Source of the DNA: Rhodococcus xishaensis | Lineage (GTDB): Bacteria > Actinomycetota > Actinomycetes > Mycobacteriales > Mycobacteriaceae | Length of the DNA stretch: 64,000 nucleotides | Direction: 5' to 3' | NCBI RefSeq assembly: GCF_004011825.1 | Contig: NZ_RKLO01000002.1 | Span: forward strand, 434,001 to 498,000 | Shown: positions 53,347 to 64,000 of the stretch, one piece after another | Position numbering within the stretch: the first letter of the stretch is position 1 | How the letters are laid out: every line of letters begins with the position of its first letter | The notes under the pieces: model-generated | The model's database searches: none | What the model was told of the DNA's origin: nothing | Seen by the model: only the letters and a program-made list of their open reading frames with translations | Position numbers and translations under genes: made by a program

Positions 53347-54624
53347 TCACAACCGTGTGAACAGGTTTCGGTCCTCCTCGAACTCGCTGAGGATCTCCGA
53401 CGTCAGTGTCGGCCGGGTGTCGCCGATCGCGGCGAGATAGTCGTCTGTGGCTGCCGGCCGGCCCGAACGGTCTGGGACCTCCCGTTCGAAGGCGGCCTGC
53501 GATCCCTTGCGAGCAGCGAACTCGATGTCGGCGGGAGTGAAGAGCTCACTGGCGTCGACCAGGCGGTCGAGATCGACGTCTTCCGCCGCATTGCCGAGGT
53601 ACCGCTTCCACACCGCGCGCCGGGCGGGCGCGTCAGGTGGCCCCACCGGGATGGTGTAGTCGAACCGACCCGGGCGCAGGAACGCCGAGTCCAACGAGTG
53701 CACCGAGTTCGTCGCGCACACCAGAAGGCGGTGCTCGCTCTCACGGAACGTCGGTATCAGTTTGAGCAGTTCATTGGTGACGCCGTGCGCCGGATTCGTC
53801 GCGAGTCCGGTTCGGGTGCTTGCGATCTCTTCGACCTCGTCGATGAACAGCACGACCTCTTCGAGCTCGGCGAGGTCCGCGAACACCCCGCGAAGGGCCG
53901 CGGCAAGGCCACCGGGTTCCGATGCCGCGAGGCGAGACGGGAACAGTTCCACGAACGGCCATTCGAGTCGGGATGCGATGGCCTTCGCGAAGCTGGTCTT
54001 GCCCGTTCCCGGTGGCCCGAACAAGATCACGGCTTTCGGTGGTTTGACCCCGTACCGGTCGGCGACGTTCGGGTGCTCGAGCGGCAACACGATGCGGCGC
54101 TCGATGACGTCCTTCACCGATTCCATCCCGGCCATCTTGTTCCAGAGTCCGATCGGCATAAGGCGTCCGCCGAGTTCGCTGAGCAGTGTCTGGTCGGGGC
54201 CGGGCGGTTCGAGCAGTTCGTAGTAGACCAGTCCGTCGCGGCGCACATATCCGGAGTGCTCGAACGCGGCCGATCCGGTGGCGCCGTCGGGGAGAACAGC
54301 TGAGATCCGACGGACACCGGATGCGCTCAGCCGGCGCTGCAGATGGGCGAGCAGGTCGCTGCCGATGCCCCGGTTGCGCCACCGGCCCCCCAGCGCCACC
54401 AGCAGGATCCATGCCCGTTCACCATGAACCTGGGCCACCGCCATGCCCACGAGTTCGTCGCCCGCGACCGCGACGACAGAGGGTGCGCCCGACCGGGCGG
54501 CCGCGACCACCTCGGCAAGAGTGAACACGGGTTCGGGGGAGCCTGGTGGTCGGCTCTGATCCCAGATCTCGATCGCTTGGTCCAGATCGTCGTTCTGGAA
54601 GTCGCGCAATCGCCACACCGGCAT
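53347..54624 (-). CDS. GNAT acetyltransferase fused to an AAA+ ATPase
   Basis: 425 residues from ATG 54624 (MPVWRLRDFQNDDLDQAIE). Residues 1-150 form a GNAT fold, with the acetyl-CoA loop LGGRWRNRGIGSDLLAHLQRR. Residues 165-425 are an AAA+ module of the FtsH/Cdc48 group: Walker A GPPGTGKTS with Lys209, Walker B VLFIDEVEEIAS, sensor 1 and arginine-finger region (VCATNSVHSLDSAFLRPGRFDYTIPVG). There is no protease domain or membrane helix. Such a fusion suggests acetylation coupled to remodelling of a target. It lies convergent to mshC and on the same strand as the GH19 and SMC genes. Confidence 0.82.
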   Translation of the reverse strand: MPVWRLRDFQNDDLDQAIEIWDQSRPPGSPEPVFTLAEVVAAARSGAPSVVAVAGDELVGMAVAQVHGERAWILLVALGGRWRNRGIGSDLLAHLQRRLSASGVRRISAVLPDGATGSAAFEHSGYVRRDGLVYYELLEPPGPDQTLLSELGGRLMPIGLWNKMAGMESVKDVIERRIVLPLEHPNVADRYGVKPPKAVILFGPPGTGKTSFAKAIASRLEWPFVELFPSRLAASEPGGLAAALRGVFADLAELEEVVLFIDEVEEIASTRTGLATNPAHGVTNELLKLIPTFRESEHRLLVCATNSVHSLDSAFLRPGRFDYTIPVGPPDAPARRAVWKRYLGNAAEDVDLDRLVDASELFTPADIEFAARKGSQAAFEREVPDRSGRPAATDDYLAAIGDTRPTLTSEILSEFEEDRNLFTRL

Positions 54625-54734
54625 CTGCCCACCTCGATCCGATCGTCGGACCCTTCCAGTAGACACCGCGATCACCGTGCTGTCAGTCCGTGCGACCGCC
54701 AGGCCACGTGCTCGAACGCTGTGGAGGCGAACCG

Positions 54735-55583
54735 TCAGCCAAGAACGGAGAGAGCCCGCTTGAAGCTGGCGACTCGTTTCGACATCCCGTGTGTGCCACC
54801 GTTGACGATCCGCGACACCTTCTCGATGCTTCCGGTGTCCGAGACGGCGTTGAGGTTGCGGGACTGCCAGTACCAGGCCGCGGTGTCGAACGCGTTCTCC
54901 GGCTTGGACATCAGTTCGGGATTGGCGACGAAGTCGATCCCGAGGTGCTTGCTGACGTTCTGATAGTTGTGTCGGCCGGTGACCTGAATCGCTCCGCGTC
55001 CCTTGTATCGAACTCCGTCGCCTGGGGAGACGTTGCCCAGATCGGCACGTCCCTCGTACGCACGACCGGATGCGTACTCCTCGAATGTGCGGAATGAGTC
55101 CGACTCGACTACGAGCTGTGCGATGAAGGCAGCCTTGCGGACGGGAGTGTCGATTGTCGCCATCGCGAGCGCTTCGTTGAGCGGCTCGACGTACTGCTCC
55201 AGTTTCGTGGACGCTACGTGCGGGATGATGCGGACGAGTTCGTCCAGCGTCACCGACGCCGGATTCGGCGGGGGTGGCGGCGGTGGCGGTGGCGGGGGCG
55301 GCGGCGCGACAGGGACCTGCGTGGCGGGAGTCGCTCCGGGCGTGGAGTCGGCCATGTCGAGGGCCTTCGCCAGGCTCTTCCCGTCGAGGAACTGGACGGG
55401 TGCCGCCTGCGCGGCGGGCAGGGACTCGGCGTGGCTGGACGCGAATGGCCCGAGCACGACGTTCCCCATCCAGAGTCCGGCGGCGGCGATGGACGCGACG
55501 CCTGTGAAGCGAGCTCGTGAATTGAACCGAGATCGTGAGGTCGACGTTTGGTTATGGAACGAGGTTGTACGCGACTCGTGCAT
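54735..55583 (-). CDS. Secreted GH19-like chitinase/muralytic enzyme
   Basis: 282 residues from ATG 55583 (a farther upstream in-frame ATG at 55637 is less likely). An Arg/Ser/Thr-rich N terminus precedes a hydrophobic segment (GVASIAAAGLWMGNVVLGPF), which serves as signal or anchor. A run of about 13 prolines (residues 100-115) links to a catalytic domain with AAFIAQLVVESDSFRTFEEYASGRAYEGR and RYKGRGAIQVTGRHNY, which are GH19/endolysin motifs including the catalytic glutamates. It probably cleaves peptidoglycan or chitin outside the cell. Confidence 0.8.
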   Translation of the reverse strand: MHESRTTSFHNQTSTSRSRFNSRARFTGVASIAAAGLWMGNVVLGPFASSHAESLPAAQAAPVQFLDGKSLAKALDMADSTPGATPATQVPVAPPPPPPPPPPPPPNPASVTLDELVRIIPHVASTKLEQYVEPLNEALAMATIDTPVRKAAFIAQLVVESDSFRTFEEYASGRAYEGRADLGNVSPGDGVRYKGRGAIQVTGRHNYQNVSKHLGIDFVANPELMSKPENAFDTAAWYWQSRNLNAVSDTGSIEKVSRIVNGGTHGMSKRVASFKRALSVLG

Positions 55584-55890
55584 GGTTCGTGCTCCAGCTA
55601 TTCGGCTGCAGACGCGGCAGCCTCCGAACGTGAGCACCGGTAGAGTCGGGAGACGACGTTGTTCCGGACCGTTGCATCACCCGGTGGTCACGGCAAGGTC
55701 ACAACCAGATAACAGGGTGATCGTTGGAAGATTCAAGGAAAACCGACGAGGATCACATTCGACCCACATCGTGGTCCGTGTCACCATTCGGGGTGATGGC
55801 GTGGCGCGGTACCCACGGCAGACTGTGAATCGACCAGCTGAATCGAGCACCTGACTCGAGCGGCGAGCGAAGCCGAGCTATCCGAACCGG
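55584..55890. promoter_or_regulatory. 307-bp gap between jetC and the GH19 gene
   Basis: No gene is supported here. In particular, no reading frame with DUF2399/JetD character follows jetC. It must contain the GH19 promoter. Two direct GGTCAC copies at 55686-55691 and 55697-55702 (11 bases apart) lie about 100-120 bp upstream of the GH19 start and could be a response-regulator site. Confidence 0.45.
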
Positions 55891-58800
55891 TCAGTAGTTC
55901 CCGCCGCCGGTCGCATGAACCTCGGCGAATTCGAACTCACCCTCGGACTGTGCGGGCACCCGCCGTCGCATCGGTGAGCCGAGGGCTCGGGACAGGTTGC
56001 CCCCGTTGTGTTCTGCGAGAAGTTCTCCGCCGGACCACACGAGCAGTGCCGCGCTGACAGTGTGTTCCGCCGTCGAGTGCGCGAGGTCGTAGTGCGCGCA
56101 TCCCGGCACACCGGCGTACGTGATCCACAGGTCGTACCCGGTCATGAACAGGTCCAAGTCGAACTGGACGCTCAGCCCCAGGAGTTCACTGCGTCCGTTG
56201 TCGTCGACGCCGGCGAATGCCTCGTCAAGCCCGAGCAGTCGCGGTGAGTGCGGATCCGCCGACGAGAGCATCACGTGTGCGGCCGCGAAGAGCGGCAGGT
56301 GCAGAGACACCGACTGCTCGCCGCCCGAGAGGGCGCTGTGCCGAGCCACGGTCAGTCGGTCCTCGCTGCCGTCGCCGCCGACCAGAGTGAACGAGAACAC
56401 CCGCCAGCGCCGGTAGTCGAGCGCGGCCGCGAGGATCTCCGGGTAGGATCGTTCGGGATGGGCCGCACGGGCCAGACGCACCTGGGACGCGAAATGTGCT
56501 CGGATAGTGGTCAATTCGTCGGCACTCAGCGCCGACGGCACCCGCTCCAGCAGCTTCGAGACTACGCGAGAACTGTCGTCGAGGTTGTCGGCGAGGACCC
56601 AGTGGACGCCGATCGTGCTGCCCGATGACATGCGCCGCTCGCGCATCTCGGCGCCCATCTGTCCGATCAACTCTCGCGCGTCGGCGGTGCGCTCGTGGAT
56701 CTGCTGGGCGAGACCGGTCAGGAGCGCGTCCTCGAGGATTCGTCGTTCCGAATCCGTCAGCAACACTTCCTGATCCAGACGTGCAGTCCGGATCCGTGAG
56801 GCGAACTCACCGATCGACGAGTAACCGTGATCGTCCTGGACCGACACGACGGTGAGCCCGTCCGGTGCGTCCCACTGCAGTCGGTAGCCCTGGCCGGACG
56901 CAGCCAGCTCGGCGTCGAAGTCCTGCAACGCAGCCGTGAGTGCCGACCGTGTCGACTTCCGGGCGCTCTCACTTGTTTTCACCGATGCCGTGGCGGCGTT
57001 GATTGCACCGTAGAGTGTGTCCACTTCGGGTGGCAGGATCGGGGAGTGACGATCTCCCTCGGTCGTGATGCGGTACACGAGTTGCTCGGGACTCATCCAG
57101 GCCGCGGCGCTCTGCGGCCACGAATGCTCGGTCGCGACGCCGAGTAGGTGTAGCAGATCACGCTGTGCATACGGTGCGAGTCGGTCTGCGTCCGTCCGTG
57201 TCTCGGTCAGCGCGGTGAGGAGCGCCTCGACGGCCCCCGTATACGCTCCCTCCGCCTTGCCGATCAGTTCGACGGCAGCATCGTAGGTCTTGCGTGCCGC
57301 GCGCTGTTCGGCCTTGCACGTCTCGATCCGGGTCCGGGCCCGCTCGAGATCCGCGTCGATCTGCTCGGCGCTCGCTCCCAGCGCTTCCCGGAGGGTCTCG
57401 AGGCGGCAGAGCTGCTGCCCGTAGTTCTCCTCCGCGATAGCAGCTTCCTCGACGAACTCCTCAGTGTTGCCACGGGCTTCGTCGAGTCGGCTTTCCGCCT
57501 CGCGGTGGTATTCGAGTTCCTTGTCGTGCTCACGCCGGCATCGCAGCAGCTGCTCTCCCAGGCTCTCGAAGTGCCGGATCGCGGCGGCAAGCGTGTCGAT
57601 CTCACGGGACCGGCGGGATGTGCGATGTTCGGCAGCCACGACGCGAAGCTGCTTTTCCTTTGCCGTGTGGTCCGCAATCGCCTGATCGAGCTCCTCGCCG
57701 GCACTCCTGGACGACTCCGATCGGGTGCGAAGGGCGCCCGCCGCCTCGGAGAGCCGCTTGATCGCGGCGAGTACGCCCGACGTGCGCGGTAATGCCCTGG
57801 AGGCGTTCGCCAACCGGTCGACGACTCGAGCGGCCTGGGCCTCGGAGTCACGGGCTGCGGCGAGAGCATGCTCGACAGCGGCGATCTCCCGGTCGAGTTC
57901 CTCCAAGCGTTGGGCACGACGACGTTCGCGGGCAGTCGAGCCGATGTATTCGGCGTCCGCCTTGACGTGGCGGCCGTGCTGGATGCCCTGCCAGAACCGG
58001 CCGTCCACACCTACGCCGACGGTGTCGGGGACGTCGGGGCTGCCGGCGCCGTCGCGAACGAGCGCCACCGACGCGAGAATCGCCGAGACCACGGAATCCG
58101 GGACGTCAGTATCTGGTTCGACCTCGAGGACGTCCGCCAACGTCGGTCCCTGCGGCCGCCGGTCCTCGGGCAAGGGCACGAGGAACTGCTCTGAGGTCAT
58201 GCGCGGCGCCGGCCCGTCGCCACCGAAGACCCAGGCGTCGAGAAGGTTTGCAGCTGCCAGAGCCGATTCGATGCCGGCGGCGACGGAGGGCTCCACGCCG
58301 TCGGCGAACCGCACCAGTCGCCACAGCGGGGCCCCGGGAAGACCACTGCGGTCGCTCGAACGGAATGCGAAACCTGCCGGAGCATCGTCGTGTTGGTCCG
58401 AGACCCGCTTTCGGTTGGACTGCAGCGCGGCGATCTGTTCCATGCTCGAGGACTGGTCGGCCTGCGCGCTGCGGCGAAGGGCCCGTTGCTCGTCGAGCGC
58501 CGACTGCGTGTGCTCGTGCAGCACGGTCGTCAAGCTGGGCGAGTCGGCCTCGCCGACCTGTGCGAGGGCCGCGTCGAGCGCGGTGAACAGGGCCGCGGTC
58601 ACCCCGGCCGATCGGTATTCGGCGGAATGCTCGCTCCACCAACTCCGTAGGTCGGCCGCGCAGTCCGCACGGGCCAGCTCGACGGACGCCTCGGCCTCCG
58701 CGACGATGGCTTGGCCCGCGTCGAGCAGATCGCGGCCCCTGTCGGCGGCGCGCCCGGCGCGATCACGCTCCGTAGCGGCCTTCTCGACCGCTGCGAGTGC

Positions 58801-60096
58801 GGCGCGCACGGCCCGCACGTCGCCATCACGTTCCTCGGCGTGACCCCGGACGGCAGTCGTGATCTGATCCGATCGTGCGGTCTCGTGCAGCGGCGTCCAC
58901 ACGATTCCCGCCTGCTCGGCTGCTTCGGCCAGTTCCTCCTCGGCTCGCACCAGCGCCGCATGCGCACGGCCGACCGAGTCCGCCGCGCGGGAAGCCTCGT
59001 CCATTCGCTGCCCCAGCGTCGACTGGGCCTTGCGTGCCTTGTCGGCCTGCTGTGTGGTCGAGAGTTTCAGCTGCTCGACGGCGGCCGCGAGATCGTCGAG
59101 TTGTTGCTTGCCCTCGTAGGCGCCCGATCGCTGGAGGGTGTCGAGGTCGACACGGGCTTGCTCGAGAGCGCGCTCGGCCTCGGTGAACCGCTCTTCGGCG
59201 AGGACGCGCTCCTCCTGCCGTGACGTCTGCAGCGACCGCGCCTCATCCAGGGTCGCCGTCGCACGGCCGACTGAGTCGAGCCGACGAGCGACCTGCTCGA
59301 TATCTGTGCGCGCCTGCTGAGCCAAGTACCTCGAGTACACCGTCACGAAACTCTGTGCCGCATGGTCGGCGGCCGTCAGTCCCTCGAGCGCCCGGCCCAC
59401 CTCCTCGAGGTCGCTGAAGGAGCGGGCCGCCTCGAGGACGAGCTGGTCGTCGAGCGGCCGCAGGCCATCGGTGAGCGCCTGTGACAGGCCTTTCGGGTCC
59501 AGATTCTTGGCCAGCTGTGGGCGTCGCAGGGTCAGGATCAAGTTGATCAACTGGTCGTAGCGCTGCGATCCGAGCCCGAACAGGCGGGCGTCGATCGCTC
59601 CGCGGTAGTCGACCGGGCGGTCGGTGATGGTGTCGCTGCCGATTTGCTCTGCGAGCTGCTTTTTGGTGAGCGGTCGGTCGTCATTGCCGAGGAGCGAGAA
59701 GTCGATACCCACGCGACCGTCGGCGACGAAGTACCAGCGGGTGACCTTGTCGTTGTGGCGGGTGGCGCGCATCCCTATACCGACAGTGACGGCTTCGGGG
59801 TCGTTCGCCGGTCCGCGACTGAACTCCATCCACACGTACGAATGCGCCGAATCCTGGCCGCGGTAGAGCAGATTCGACTTCATCGTCCGTTCCTCGCCCG
59901 CGAACGGGTTGAGGCGGCGAGGCTCGATTCGACCGTCGAGAACGAACGGGAACAGCACCTCGAGGGCTTTGGTTTTCCCTGAGCCGTTGGGGCCGCGCAG
60001 TACGAGACGACCGTCTGCGAACGAGAACTCCTGGTCTCGGTAGTCCCAGAGGTTGATGATCCCGGCGCGGGTCGGTTTGAAACGCGCGTGTGGCAT
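55891..60096 (-). CDS. jetC: JetC: SMC/MukB-like ATPase of a Wadjet-type system (TIGR02680 family)
   Basis: 1401 residues, the ATPase motor of a condensin-like complex that in Wadjet systems loads on DNA, extrudes loops and marks small circular plasmids. The start is the ATG at 60096 (MPHARFKPTRAGIINLWDYR); an upstream extension to 60393 overlaps jetB and is a read-through. Walker A GPNGSGKT is at residues 35-42; the C-terminal ABC signature LSGGEQS is at 1256-1262 and Walker B LGLDEAF has Asp1291-Glu1292. Between about 290 and 1150 lies long coiled coil with a central hinge-like globular part. It begins 19 bases after jetB. The C terminus is complete and no jetD follows. Confidence 0.93.
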   Translation of the reverse strand: MPHARFKPTRAGIINLWDYRDQEFSFADGRLVLRGPNGSGKTKALEVLFPFVLDGRIEPRRLNPFAGEERTMKSNLLYRGQDSAHSYVWMEFSRGPANDPEAVTVGIGMRATRHNDKVTRWYFVADGRVGIDFSLLGNDDRPLTKKQLAEQIGSDTITDRPVDYRGAIDARLFGLGSQRYDQLINLILTLRRPQLAKNLDPKGLSQALTDGLRPLDDQLVLEAARSFSDLEEVGRALEGLTAADHAAQSFVTVYSRYLAQQARTDIEQVARRLDSVGRATATLDEARSLQTSRQEERVLAEERFTEAERALEQARVDLDTLQRSGAYEGKQQLDDLAAAVEQLKLSTTQQADKARKAQSTLGQRMDEASRAADSVGRAHAALVRAEEELAEAAEQAGIVWTPLHETARSDQITTAVRGHAEERDGDVRAVRAALAAVEKAATERDRAGRAADRGRDLLDAGQAIVAEAEASVELARADCAADLRSWWSEHSAEYRSAGVTAALFTALDAALAQVGEADSPSLTTVLHEHTQSALDEQRALRRSAQADQSSSMEQIAALQSNRKRVSDQHDDAPAGFAFRSSDRSGLPGAPLWRLVRFADGVEPSVAAGIESALAAANLLDAWVFGGDGPAPRMTSEQFLVPLPEDRRPQGPTLADVLEVEPDTDVPDSVVSAILASVALVRDGAGSPDVPDTVGVGVDGRFWQGIQHGRHVKADAEYIGSTARERRRAQRLEELDREIAAVEHALAAARDSEAQAARVVDRLANASRALPRTSGVLAAIKRLSEAAGALRTRSESSRSAGEELDQAIADHTAKEKQLRVVAAEHRTSRRSREIDTLAAAIRHFESLGEQLLRCRREHDKELEYHREAESRLDEARGNTEEFVEEAAIAEENYGQQLCRLETLREALGASAEQIDADLERARTRIETCKAEQRAARKTYDAAVELIGKAEGAYTGAVEALLTALTETRTDADRLAPYAQRDLLHLLGVATEHSWPQSAAAWMSPEQLVYRITTEGDRHSPILPPEVDTLYGAINAATASVKTSESARKSTRSALTAALQDFDAELAASGQGYRLQWDAPDGLTVVSVQDDHGYSSIGEFASRIRTARLDQEVLLTDSERRILEDALLTGLAQQIHERTADARELIGQMGAEMRERRMSSGSTIGVHWVLADNLDDSSRVVSKLLERVPSALSADELTTIRAHFASQVRLARAAHPERSYPEILAAALDYRRWRVFSFTLVGGDGSEDRLTVARHSALSGGEQSVSLHLPLFAAAHVMLSSADPHSPRLLGLDEAFAGVDDNGRSELLGLSVQFDLDLFMTGYDLWITYAGVPGCAHYDLAHSTAEHTVSAALLVWSGGELLAEHNGGNLSRALGSPMRRRVPAQSEGEFEFAEVHATGGGNY

Positions 60097-60115
60097 GAGA
60101 ACGGAGTCCCTACTT

Positions 60116-61525
60116 CTAGACCGGTCGAGTGTCGTCGGTTCGGCCGGTAACCGGTTCGTGGAACAGATCGGACTGTGCGCTGCGGTGCCGGATGTTGACC
60201 ACGACGCCGCGGAATCGGGCGATGGCCGGCAGCACCAGGACACCGTCGTCGACTTTCCTGACCAGGTCGAGTCGATCGAGCAGTGCGATGGCGTTTCGTC
60301 GCAACCCGGCGTGGTCGGCCTGCCACTGTGCGGCGAACGTCCGTCCGAACTGCCGGACGAGCTTGCCCACCGCCTCGGCCAGCCAGGCGTCACCGAGCTG
60401 CGGGTAGCGGGCGGGCTCGGAAGCGTTCTCGACGGGGGTCGTTGGCTCAGAGGGTGCGGCCGCCGGATCCTCAGCTAGTTGCTCGAATATCCCAGCGCGG
60501 GGGATCGCGGCATCGAGTTGCGTGGTGAGTTCGAACCGGCTGCGGTCGGGGAGTGGTCGGTGCTGCAACTGCGGTGCATCCAGGTCGAGGACTCGGTCGG
60601 CCATTTCGCCGGCCAGGAGCAGTGCGACCTGTGAGACCGTCCCAGTGCTGGGGAACCGTACGTCGGACATCCGGCCGGAAGGGTCGATCATTGCGATGCC
60701 CTCGGCTCGCCGCTCGGCCACCAGACCGGTTAGATCCTCCACGGCGGCCGCCGTGCGGGGCAACGCGAGCTGGAGCCGTTCGTCGTCGGCCAGTTCGTCC
60801 GCGTACACGACGGGACGTTCGACGAGTGCGCGCCGGATGCGACGCGCGGTCTCTCGCGGGTCGGCCGGGCGAGGCCCGACCGCTGCCTCCTGGAGCCGAT
60901 CCTTCTCGCCCTCGAGTAGGGACCGCACCGAGGTCACGTGCTGCAGGACGCGCGGCGGGCGGAACAGTGCGATCACCACCGAGCGGTCGATGTCGTAGAG
61001 TGCCTCGCCCGTATCGGGATTCGACGCCCACCCGCCGGCGTCGCCGTCGGCGAGCACGATTGCACCACGGGCGGCAAGCCAGGCGACCGCGTCGACGAAC
61101 GCGTCTCGGTCCGCCGCCCGCTCGGTGGATAGCGTCACTCCGGGGACCTGCGCGGCTTCTGTGGCGACGTGGTCAGCCAACTCGGACAACGTGATCTGGT
61201 TCCCGGACCGCCCGAGCGCTGCGAGCGCCAACGCGAGGTAGGCGTAGCGGTGCCGGTCGAAAACCCGGTCACTCGGAGTTCGTGCGGGGGTGTCTGGGAC
61301 GAGCCGGTCGGGCACCGTGAACAAACGCGCTGTCGTCTCGGTGACCTCGAATCGGTACCCGAACAGCTCGAGTAGGTCCTCACGCAGTTCGGTGGCCCAT
61401 CTGCGCAGGAGCGGAAGCGCGAGGCGGTCTGGATAAGTCTGCGTCACAAGATGATTCGACAAGATCATGCGGGCAGCCCGCTGGTACATGTCGATCTCGA
61501 GCGGTGAGATGGTGCGGGCCCTCAT
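60116..61525 (-). CDS. jetB: JetB: TIGR02678/DUF2398 subunit of a Wadjet-type system
   Basis: 469 residues from ATG 61525, whose A-T-G overlaps the jetA stop (ATGA). Winged-helix-like N-terminal part (ARMILSNHLVTQTYPDRLAL) and helical C-terminal domains. DUF2398 proteins occur in the conserved four-gene TIGR02677-02680 neighbourhood and play the kite-like (MukE-type) role that bridges the kleisin and the SMC heads. That assignment is by family and gene order; I see no catalytic motif. It is coupled to jetA and followed 19 bases later by jetC. Confidence 0.9.
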   Translation of the reverse strand: MRARTISPLEIDMYQRAARMILSNHLVTQTYPDRLALPLLRRWATELREDLLELFGYRFEVTETTARLFTVPDRLVPDTPARTPSDRVFDRHRYAYLALALAALGRSGNQITLSELADHVATEAAQVPGVTLSTERAADRDAFVDAVAWLAARGAIVLADGDAGGWASNPDTGEALYDIDRSVVIALFRPPRVLQHVTSVRSLLEGEKDRLQEAAVGPRPADPRETARRIRRALVERPVVYADELADDERLQLALPRTAAAVEDLTGLVAERRAEGIAMIDPSGRMSDVRFPSTGTVSQVALLLAGEMADRVLDLDAPQLQHRPLPDRSRFELTTQLDAAIPRAGIFEQLAEDPAAAPSEPTTPVENASEPARYPQLGDAWLAEAVGKLVRQFGRTFAAQWQADHAGLRRNAIALLDRLDLVRKVDDGVLVLPAIARFRGVVVNIRHRSAQSDLFHEPVTGRTDDTRPV

Positions 61526-63033
61526 TGCACCGTCACCTGCAGTCCGTCGAGATGAAGCCGGCCACGGGTGGTCTGGACGACCGTTGATTCCGCATGCGGA
61601 CGCAGCGTCAGCCGGACACCGTTCTCCGAGCCCGTCGAACTCGGGACGGTTCCGCTGACCGGCACCCGTGCGGTGAGTGCGGCGCTGAGCAGGCTGAGTA
61701 GCACGTCGGTCTCTCGAGTGTCGAGCACCCGGTCGTAAGCGCCCCCGGCAGCGAGCGAGGCCGCGGCCGTGGCCCGCGCCTGCTGCGCTGCGAGCTGTTC
61801 CTGGCGAAGCCGCCGGACGCCGGCCTCGTCGCGCTGGACACGGGCGGGGATGCCTGGCAACGCCGGCCGTCCGGTCTCCGCGAGAGTTCGGGAGACCTCG
61901 ACAGGTGCCGCCACCCACCACGACCGCGAATCGGGGATGATGTCGTTGTCCGGGTGGACCATCGACAGGTGCCGTGGGCGGCCGAGGTCGAAGACGAGTT
62001 GGTACAGCGCGTGCGCCGAGTCTTCCGTGGGGGCCGCGGCGAACCAGCCTGCGAGGTGCCGCAGCTGACTCTCGCGGCTCACGCCGCCCCGCCGGGCCTC
62101 GGTTACCCGGCGTAGGAGAGAGAGTACGGCCGCGACGGCGCTCATCGTGCCCTCCCGCAGTCGATCAGACTCGCTCGGAGCGGACGCAGCGACGAACCAC
62201 TGTGTCAGTCCCGACCAGCGTGTGCGCCAGTCGGACTCGCGATGCTCGCGAGGGAGGAAGACGCGTTCGTCACTTGCAGCGGCACGAGCGATCAGCGAGT
62301 CGACTCCGGTTGCCTCCACGACCTCGATCGCGGTCGCAAGTCTCGGGGCGTACCGCGCGAGATCGGAACTGAACTCCCGCATGTGGCTGAGCAACGCGTC
62401 CTTGTGGGTGAGGAACCCCTCAGGCGTGATCTCCGTGGTGCGGACCAAATCGCCGAGCATCAGGTAGAACTGCGCAGCGCGTGCGGCCATATCGGTGAGC
62501 GTGGAATCGAGTCGTGCGAGCTTGCGGTAGATGAGATCGCCGTCCGCCCGCCGGTTCGCCTCAGCGAGTTCCTCGAGGTCTGCGAGCAAGTCCGGCAACG
62601 CGAGCCGGGACAAGGTCGCGTCTTCGAGGCGGGCGCCCAGAAGGTCCTCGACCGCTCGGAACGCCAGGTAGCCGGCCTGACTGAACTGGTATACGAAGTG
62701 ACGGTTCCGGTACTCGGCAAGCGTTGCGACACGGCTGCCGTCGTAGCTGCGCTCGAGAAGGCCCCATGAATGCAGTTGTTCGAGGAGGGGGGTGATCTCG
62801 GCCGACGTCATGGCTGCGGCGGGATTGTCGCCCGCGATCCTGGTGAGGATATCCGCCGCATCGCCCGCGTGCAGGAGCACGACGTAGTTCGCTCGGGCGT
62901 TGTCGAACGCCCTCAGCACCCACAGGTACTCGGCACGCTTCTCCGCGGTTGTGAAGGAGAACAGCCGCAACCGGTCCTCGTGCATGGCGAGATCGGCGTC
63001 CGCTGACAGCCGCGTGTCACCTGAATCGCTCAC
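61522..63033 (-). CDS. jetA: JetA: TIGR02677/DUF2397 kleisin-like subunit of a Wadjet-type system
   Basis: 503 residues, predominantly helical (MSDSGDTRLSADADLAMHED). DUF2397 proteins are the MukF-like kleisin of the system. Typical family stretches include RLRLFSFTTAEKRAEYLWVL at the N terminus and LGDLVRTTEITPEGFLTHKDALLSHMREF in the middle. It starts the coupled operon jetA-jetB-jetC, with a 49-bp gap behind the AbiEi-like gene in the same orientation, so that gene may be part of the operon. Known relatives restrict plasmid maintenance; the EptABC system of M. smegmatis is a functional precedent. Confidence 0.9.
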   Translation of the reverse strand: MSDSGDTRLSADADLAMHEDRLRLFSFTTAEKRAEYLWVLRAFDNARANYVVLLHAGDAADILTRIAGDNPAAAMTSAEITPLLEQLHSWGLLERSYDGSRVATLAEYRNRHFVYQFSQAGYLAFRAVEDLLGARLEDATLSRLALPDLLADLEELAEANRRADGDLIYRKLARLDSTLTDMAARAAQFYLMLGDLVRTTEITPEGFLTHKDALLSHMREFSSDLARYAPRLATAIEVVEATGVDSLIARAAASDERVFLPREHRESDWRTRWSGLTQWFVAASAPSESDRLREGTMSAVAAVLSLLRRVTEARRGGVSRESQLRHLAGWFAAAPTEDSAHALYQLVFDLGRPRHLSMVHPDNDIIPDSRSWWVAAPVEVSRTLAETGRPALPGIPARVQRDEAGVRRLRQEQLAAQQARATAAASLAAGGAYDRVLDTRETDVLLSLLSAALTARVPVSGTVPSSTGSENGVRLTLRPHAESTVVQTTRGRLHLDGLQVTVQ

Positions 63034-63082: not shown

Positions 63083-64000
63083 TCACCGCGTACGCCGGAC
63101 GGGACGGCGCCACGCCGGCTCGTCTGTGGTCAACGTCGTGAGTAGGTACTCGGCAGCGTCCGGGTGCCGAAACGGCCCTGCGGCGAGATCTGCGTACGCA
63201 TGTGCCGGCGCGACGCAGCGCAACCCGTTGCGATACTGCATTCGCTCGAAAACCACCGCTGACCACGGGGTTGCAACCATCACGTCGGCTCCGCCGTCGA
63301 TCGGCCGAAGGTCCATCGCGGCCGCGAATGCGTCGACGTCGTCGGCGTACACCTCGAGCACCGCGGGCGTGGCGTAGTCCGTTGCGCCGATTCCGGTGAC
63401 TGCATATCCCGGATCGCCGTCGGTCGCTGCGAGTCGAGCCAGCAGGTCGTCGAGGCCGCCAGGTGCGGCGAAGCCTCTGGTCGGGCACGGTTTTCGATCT
63501 GCGGCCCAAGCGCGCAGCATATGGGGCCACCGCACATCGGTGATAGGGCCGCGCGGCAGCCGCGTCAGCAATTCGCGTTCGTAGAGCACCTCGACCACTC
63601 GGTACGCGGCACCGGTCGACGTTCCCGAGAGCTTGATGAGTTCTGGGACCGACATCTCGCCGACATAGTCCGCGAGCGCGCGCACGACACGTTCGGACGG
63701 CTCACCGGTGAGCACCCCCGACGGTCGCCCGGGGCCTCGCCAGGGGTCCGCGTCGGCGCCGCGGTTGCGCACCCAGATCGTGGGCCGCGTCGCGAGAAGA
63801 CTCACGTTGCCGGTGGCATCCCCATACGAGATGCCGTGGCCGTCCAGTTGTCGTCGTACCGGATCCGAGAGGTAGTGAGCACAGACGAATCCGCGGTCGC
63901 TGTCGGACAATTCGGAGGCGATGCGTGCGACGTCCCCGCTGAGCACGCCCTTGCGGGCGATGATCGCGTAGGAGACCGATTCGCCGTCCGGCGCGGTGAT
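63083..64000 (-). CDS. AbiEi-like winged-helix protein, partial (5' end beyond window)
   Basis: The frame is open to base 64000; a GTG at 63946 is internal, because coding-looking sequence (ITAPDGESVSYAIIARKG) continues upstream to the edge. The visible 305 residues include GISYGDATGNVSLLATRPTIW, the signature of the AbiEi_2 (type IV antitoxin-like) fold, a central winged helix (LADYVGEMSVPELIKLSGTSTGAAYRVVEVL), and a C-terminal domain. No AbiEii nucleotidyltransferase toxin follows; instead jetA begins 49 bp downstream on the same strand. It may regulate the Wadjet operon or be an independent gene. Confidence 0.65.
   Translation of the reverse strand: MTAPDGESVSYAIIARKGVLSGDVARIASELSDSDRGFVCAHYLSDPVRRQLDGHGISYGDATGNVSLLATRPTIWVRNRGADADPWRGPGRPSGVLTGEPSERVVRALADYVGEMSVPELIKLSGTSTGAAYRVVEVLYERELLTRLPRGPITDVRWPHMLRAWAADRKPCPTRGFAAPGGLDDLLARLAATDGDPGYAVTGIGATDYATPAVLEVYADDVDAFAAAMDLRPIDGGADVMVATPWSAVVFERMQYRNGLRCVAPAHAYADLAAGPFRHPDAAEYLLTTLTTDEPAWRRPVRRTR

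Follow-up and report, generated by a model that had tools for sequence, protein, structure and literature searches.

Conserved jetABC operons without a jetD nuclease gene in Rhodococcus xishaensis and many of its relatives

Is an SMC complex that restricts plasmids of any use to a cell once its nuclease is gone? According to the passages of PMC10586767 on reconstituted Wadjet systems, mostly of type I, JetABC is believed to size circular DNA through loop extrusion, and the cut is made by JetD. We examined a locus in Rhodococcus xishaensis that puts the question in testable form; the direction of evolution between chromosome folding and defence is also at stake. The DNA analysed, called the window below, is a stretch of 64,000 nucleotides (positions 434001-498000 of a 682,655-bp contig), and its right edge lies inside the contig.

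The genes jetA, jetB and jetC follow one another head to tail on the minus strand as a coupled operon (Table 1). The start of jetB (61525) overlaps the jetA stop in an ATGA, and the jetC ATG (60096) lies 19 bp past jetB; the longest open frames begin upstream of these two likely starts. An earlier note, made from the sequence alone, had matched the three coupled genes to TIGR02677, TIGR02678 and TIGR02680, and our searches bore this out with NCBIfam scores of 232.3, 143.4 and 741 bits, respectively, all above the curated cut-offs. The jetC product carries a Walker A motif (GPNGSGKT), an ABC signature (LSGGEQ) and a Walker B motif (LDEAF). Among PADLOC models, the best matches were the type II models JetC2 (1419.6 bits), JetB2 (684.7 bits) and JetA2 (600.8 bits), and the type I JetC1 models reached at most 36.9 bits. 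The operon is the core of a Wadjet type II system: JetA, JetB and JetC with its three ATPase motifs are present, and what the locus holds is a kleisin-KITE-SMC operon of three genes without a nuclease gene. A canonical SMC protein is also encoded in this genome (1003 bits).

Table 1. Features of the jetABC locus and its neighbours (window positions)
Feature	Coordinates	Strand	Basis
jetA, kleisin subunit (DUF2397/TIGR02677)	61522..63033	-	profile matches
jetB, KITE subunit (DUF2398/TIGR02678)	60116..61525	-	profile matches
jetC, SMC ATPase (TIGR02680)	55891..60096	-	profile matches and motifs
Stretch after jetC where JetD-bearing relatives have jetD	55638..55890	.	jetD absent
X4, winged-helix gene upstream of jetA ("AbiEi-like" in the earlier note)	63083..64000, on to about 64162	-	sub-threshold wHTH match
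GH19-like protein (chitinase class I) containing a proline run; follows jetC	54735-55637	-	
Single frame with GNAT acetyltransferase and AAA ATPase domains	53347-54675	-	

We searched for JetD beside the operon, beyond position 64000 and in the rest of the 3.7-Mb genome with TIGR02679, PF09664, PF11796, PF09983 (the type I JetD profile) and a clade-specific profile, and found none. The four database profiles gave zero matches in this genome. TIGR02679, PF09664 and PF11796 were also silent in all 14 control genomes, so these zeros prove little on their own; PF09983 did match in Corynebacterium glutamicum. The positive control for TIGR02679 is a survey of the family, where it matched 27 of 251 genomes, and PF09664 and PF11796 are without one. 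The clade-specific profile, built from 15 JetD rows (one genome twice), recovered the same 27 genomes and again nothing in R. xishaensis. Past position 64000 the contig continues with the remainder of X4, an MFS transporter, PAC2, metH, a HAD hydrolase, a pseudouridine synthase and a TrmI-like methyltransferase. The earlier note had reported a jetABC operon without an adjacent JetD, and profile searches of the locus and flank confirm this. Two of the explanations it offered, a JetD upstream beyond 64000 or elsewhere in the genome, are ruled out at the sensitivity of these searches. The AbiEi-like gene shows no DUF2399 domain, the only match there being the sub-threshold wHTH. What stands of its list is the option that the complex works with another effector or has lost restriction; a replacement effector shared in cis was not found.

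X4 was considered as such an effector. It carries a DATGN motif that is invariant, matches no Pfam family with confidence, and is also present in another locus (L026:4947-6008). It is not supported as a replacement: the family occurs in 63 of 251 genomes, some of them lacking JetA (G112, G115, G134, G150, G206, G225, G238 and G240), and it coexists with JetD in G110 and G145. In G123, X4 lies about 208 kb from jetA. X4 is probably a neighbour and not part of the complex. Among the gene families at the loci compared, none besides jetABC was common to all JetD-less neighbourhoods. In 24 loci, all without jetD, the gene upstream of jetA appears by eye to encode an XRE-type regulator, with weak Pfam matches only. 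The family of the GH19-like gene that follows jetC recurs in 8 of 81 loci, none of them with jetD, and that of the GNAT-ATPase frame in 6 of 81.

We compared the locus with its counterparts in named genomes, taking the best 80 of 368 JetC relatives, which come from Rhodococcus, Prescottella, Rhodococcoides, Antrihabitans and Nocardia, and searching the locus only. By JetD profile, jetD is present in 17 of these 80 best-matching loci, in each case as the gene that immediately follows jetC, its called start lying -20 to +37 bp from the end of jetC. The profile finds no jetD in the other 63, two of which (L057 and L061) are uninformative, with less than 0.5 kb of sequence after jetC. All 30 Nocardia loci, the uninformative L057 included, fall among the 63, and these 30 group together on the JetC tree. 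In L009, L022, L024 and L028, mshC begins 45-63 bp past jetC, and in the 15 loci that have both jetD and mshC the distance is 1230-1291 bp. A palindrome that looks terminator-like by eye separates jetC from mshC in L009 and L022. Two kyotonense loci, L024 and L036, agree as far as the jetC stop codon and resume matching at the end of mshC; L024 is missing the intervening stretch, which contains jetD. No relic of jetD was detected at E<=0.05 in the 64 JetD-less loci, the window included.

The surroundings of the operon are shared as well. PAC2/metH and/or mshC lie within the examined DNA of 63 of 81 loci (the 80 plus the window). JetC distances track those of PAC2 (r 0.77, 49 loci), MetH (0.86, 45 loci) and MshC (0.85, 39 loci), with 0 of 999 permutations as high in Mantel tests. 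Of the 25 plasmid records that carry a JetC relative, none came from Rhodococcus or Nocardia; the seven best are Streptomyces sequences 0.4-2.4 Mb long, and those examined, five in number, are linear. By these comparisons the locus is common to Rhodococcus and Nocardia and is largely vertically inherited.

The same pattern holds at the level of genomes. Within the family sample of 251, JetA was found in 106 genomes and JetD in 27, all of them among the 106, which leaves 79 JetA genomes without JetD anywhere (TIGR02679; the clade profile agrees). In the genus of R. xishaensis itself, JetA is present in 14 of 14 genomes and JetD in 0 of 14 (one, G183, is 79% complete). A phylum-wide draw of 346 genomes gave 29 with JetA, 26 of them outside the family, and JetD accompanied JetA in 22 of these 26; the JetD match of G491 is weak, and in some of the 22 the two genes are on different contigs. 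The four outside-family genomes with JetA and no JetD (G423, G439, G566 and G575) are assembled into 170-290 contigs. Eight more genomes outside the family gave a JetD match but no JetA, the match being weak (E above 1e-20) in six. The difference between the family and the outside group has a Fisher p of 4e-8, which describes a family-level pattern because the genomes are not independent.

Several further arrangements appeared in the family sample. One genus (g13) has JetA in four genomes and JetD in none; the three loci read there (L143, L144 and L145) have canonical-scoring JetA (537-549 bits) and no JetD in the 20 kb examined or in the family search. Genomes of genus g27 have a second JetABC copy of three genes, diverged and located at a different site (L152, L153 and L154), with no JetD in the stretch examined. 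Five genomes with two JetA genes (G065, G121, G133, G144 and G164; loci L150 and L151) have one beside JetD and the other not. There is no JetD at the core-type site, which was read in G065 and G121.

We considered whether jetD was lost or gained. The earlier note had suggested Nocardia and Streptomyces as points of comparison; beside the JetD-less Nocardia loci described above, JetD follows jetC in 5 of 5 Streptomyces outgroup loci (annotated in two, by profile in five), a pattern that speaks for repeated loss. Over 17 loci the distances among JetD proteins correlate with those among JetC proteins (r=0.98), although the deeper branching of the two small trees is not the same. On a quick JetC tree of 86 rows, rooted with Streptomyces and with the disrupted L081 and duplicates left out, the jetD label changes at least 6 times, or is lost 13 times if it is never regained; without the outgroup the counts are 5 and 13. 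On the tree alone, with gain and loss weighted equally, jetD may have been regained in places. Taken together, the outgroup and the tree point to repeated loss of JetD rather than gain.

Frames for JetB and JetC were found at 81 of 81 loci and for JetA at 79 of 81 (the L051 and L073 loci begin too late); L081 and, within jetA, L019 carry disruptions, and a contig end truncates L061. The Walker A motif is identical in 79 of 79 aligned JetC proteins, and the signature and Walker B blocks are conserved. In hand-picked pairs of loci, some rows being used twice, mean dN/dS was 0.095 for jetA, 0.126 for jetB and 0.102 for jetC in 13 JetD-less pairs, and 0.056, 0.117 and 0.064 in 6 JetD-bearing pairs. 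The unscaled values for jetA and jetC are thus 1.6-1.7 times higher without JetD (p 0.125 and 0.072), and the gap is not significant for any of the three genes. Neighbouring metH and mshC also have higher dN/dS in the JetD-less pairs, and PAC2 does not. When scaled to mshC, jetC gave 1.65 without JetD and 1.67 with it (7 and 6 pairs). Protein divergence in 17 JetD-less loci exceeded that in 9 JetD-bearing loci by factors of 1.21, 1.11 and 1.15 for JetA, JetB and JetC, the two sets being chosen by hand and unmatched for depth (the duplicates L148 = L015 and L149 = L043 were left out). The higher unscaled dN/dS and divergence may reflect a mild loosening. No segment of JetABC stood out as degenerating without JetD, and both groups retain the JetB N-terminus. 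These estimates indicate that jetABC is under purifying selection (dN/dS near 0.1), no looser than in JetD-bearing relatives after scaling to a neighbour gene.

Selection that persists on a motor repeatedly deprived of its cutter most likely means that the motor is useful in itself, and JetABC probably has a use that needs no cutting. The form of this use that we favour, with middling confidence, is a nuclease-free SMC loop extruder with a standing cellular role. The operon encodes the SMC motor core of Wadjet type II, and the lineage appears to have lost the nuclease. JetABC would still load on DNA and extrude loops with ATP, and would do so without cutting. By analogy with MksBEF of Pseudomonas aeruginosa, the nearest precedent found, its role could be in folding or segregation of the chromosome or of large replicons, alongside the canonical SMC.

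Defence without cutting would explain the conserved motor and its purifying selection in the absence of JetD. Smc5/6 is reported to restrain episomal DNA, and JetABC could similarly entrap or compact incoming circular DNA and so hinder its expression, copying or partition. The operon does belong to an anti-plasmid family, and the review excerpted above (PMC10586767) discusses SMC complexes in the role of immunity factors that counter extrachromosomal DNA. The same text, however, states that suppression of plasmid transformation in Bacillus subtilis needs all four subunits, and a shared locus of largely vertical descent, found in all 14 of the genomes sampled from the genus, resembles a standing function more closely than it does a mobile defence. 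We regard this kind of defence as unlikely. That JetABC employs a nuclease encoded elsewhere and unrecognizable as JetD would account, with the known mechanism, for the retention of the motor in so many JetD-less genomes, but the JetD-less neighbourhoods share no further gene family, X4 is not tied to JetABC and the type I JetD profile is silent in this genome; such a partner seems to us distinctly improbable.

The loss of JetD could instead mark a former defence system in decay, and the somewhat higher unscaled dN/dS of jetA and jetC would fit this. Decay sits poorly with frames that are open in nearly all loci, an invariant Walker A motif, the lack of extra looseness after mshC scaling and the grouping of the 30 JetD-less Nocardia loci on the JetC tree, and we consider it very unlikely. 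The comparative data favour a complex kept for use without JetD over one that was lost and is decaying. Returning to the nuclease-free extruder, we propose, somewhat tentatively, that in the Rhodococcus-Nocardia lineage a plasmid-cutting JetABCD became a housekeeping SMC complex through many independent losses of JetD (up to 13), with the motor kept each time for a selected function, and that many "Wadjet" calls in this lineage would then not denote plasmid-cutting systems.

The news here is the wider pattern: a conserved jetABC without JetD in many relatives. Rhodococcus offers a natural experiment in which related strains have clean presence (L036) or absence (L024) of jetD at one site. Our results suggest that JetD should be checked for whenever a Wadjet is called automatically in these genera. 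A passage of PMC10482375 gives 73% of Rhodococcus genomes as carrying Wadjet together with RM and Eleos or PD-T4-3, and a genome paper lists a three-protein Wadjet_II that goes uncommented in that passage (PMC12915292). In the open-licence literature, we found no paper that describes type II JetABC lacking JetD as a conserved arrangement, or that reports an activity for it.

We compared jetABC to the known systems it most resembles. It has the core families of Wadjet type II (JetABCD; TIGR02677, TIGR02678, TIGR02680 and TIGR02679) in the same A-B-C order. In close relatives and the Streptomyces outgroup, type II systems have jetD directly after jetC, whereas the R. xishaensis operon has no JetD at the locus, with none found in the genome, and occupies a shared chromosomal site with largely vertical descent. 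Like P. aeruginosa MksBEF, which the excerpted text of PMC7485682 describes as acting in chromosome segregation beside SMC, JetABC is a three-subunit MukBEF-like complex that accompanies a canonical SMC, and MksG is nowhere named in that paper. MksBEF belongs to another MukBEF-like family, however. MksBEFG of C. glutamicum, a Wadjet type I system, is likewise an actinobacterial Wadjet core beside SMC-ScpAB; unlike jetABC, it includes the nuclease MksG, and the relevant passages describe it as acting on plasmids with no effect on chromosome organization (PMC10123090, PMC7083940). A passage in PMC7083940 draws the corresponding contrast between P. aeruginosa MksBEF and the MksG-bearing plasmid system of C. 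glutamicum.
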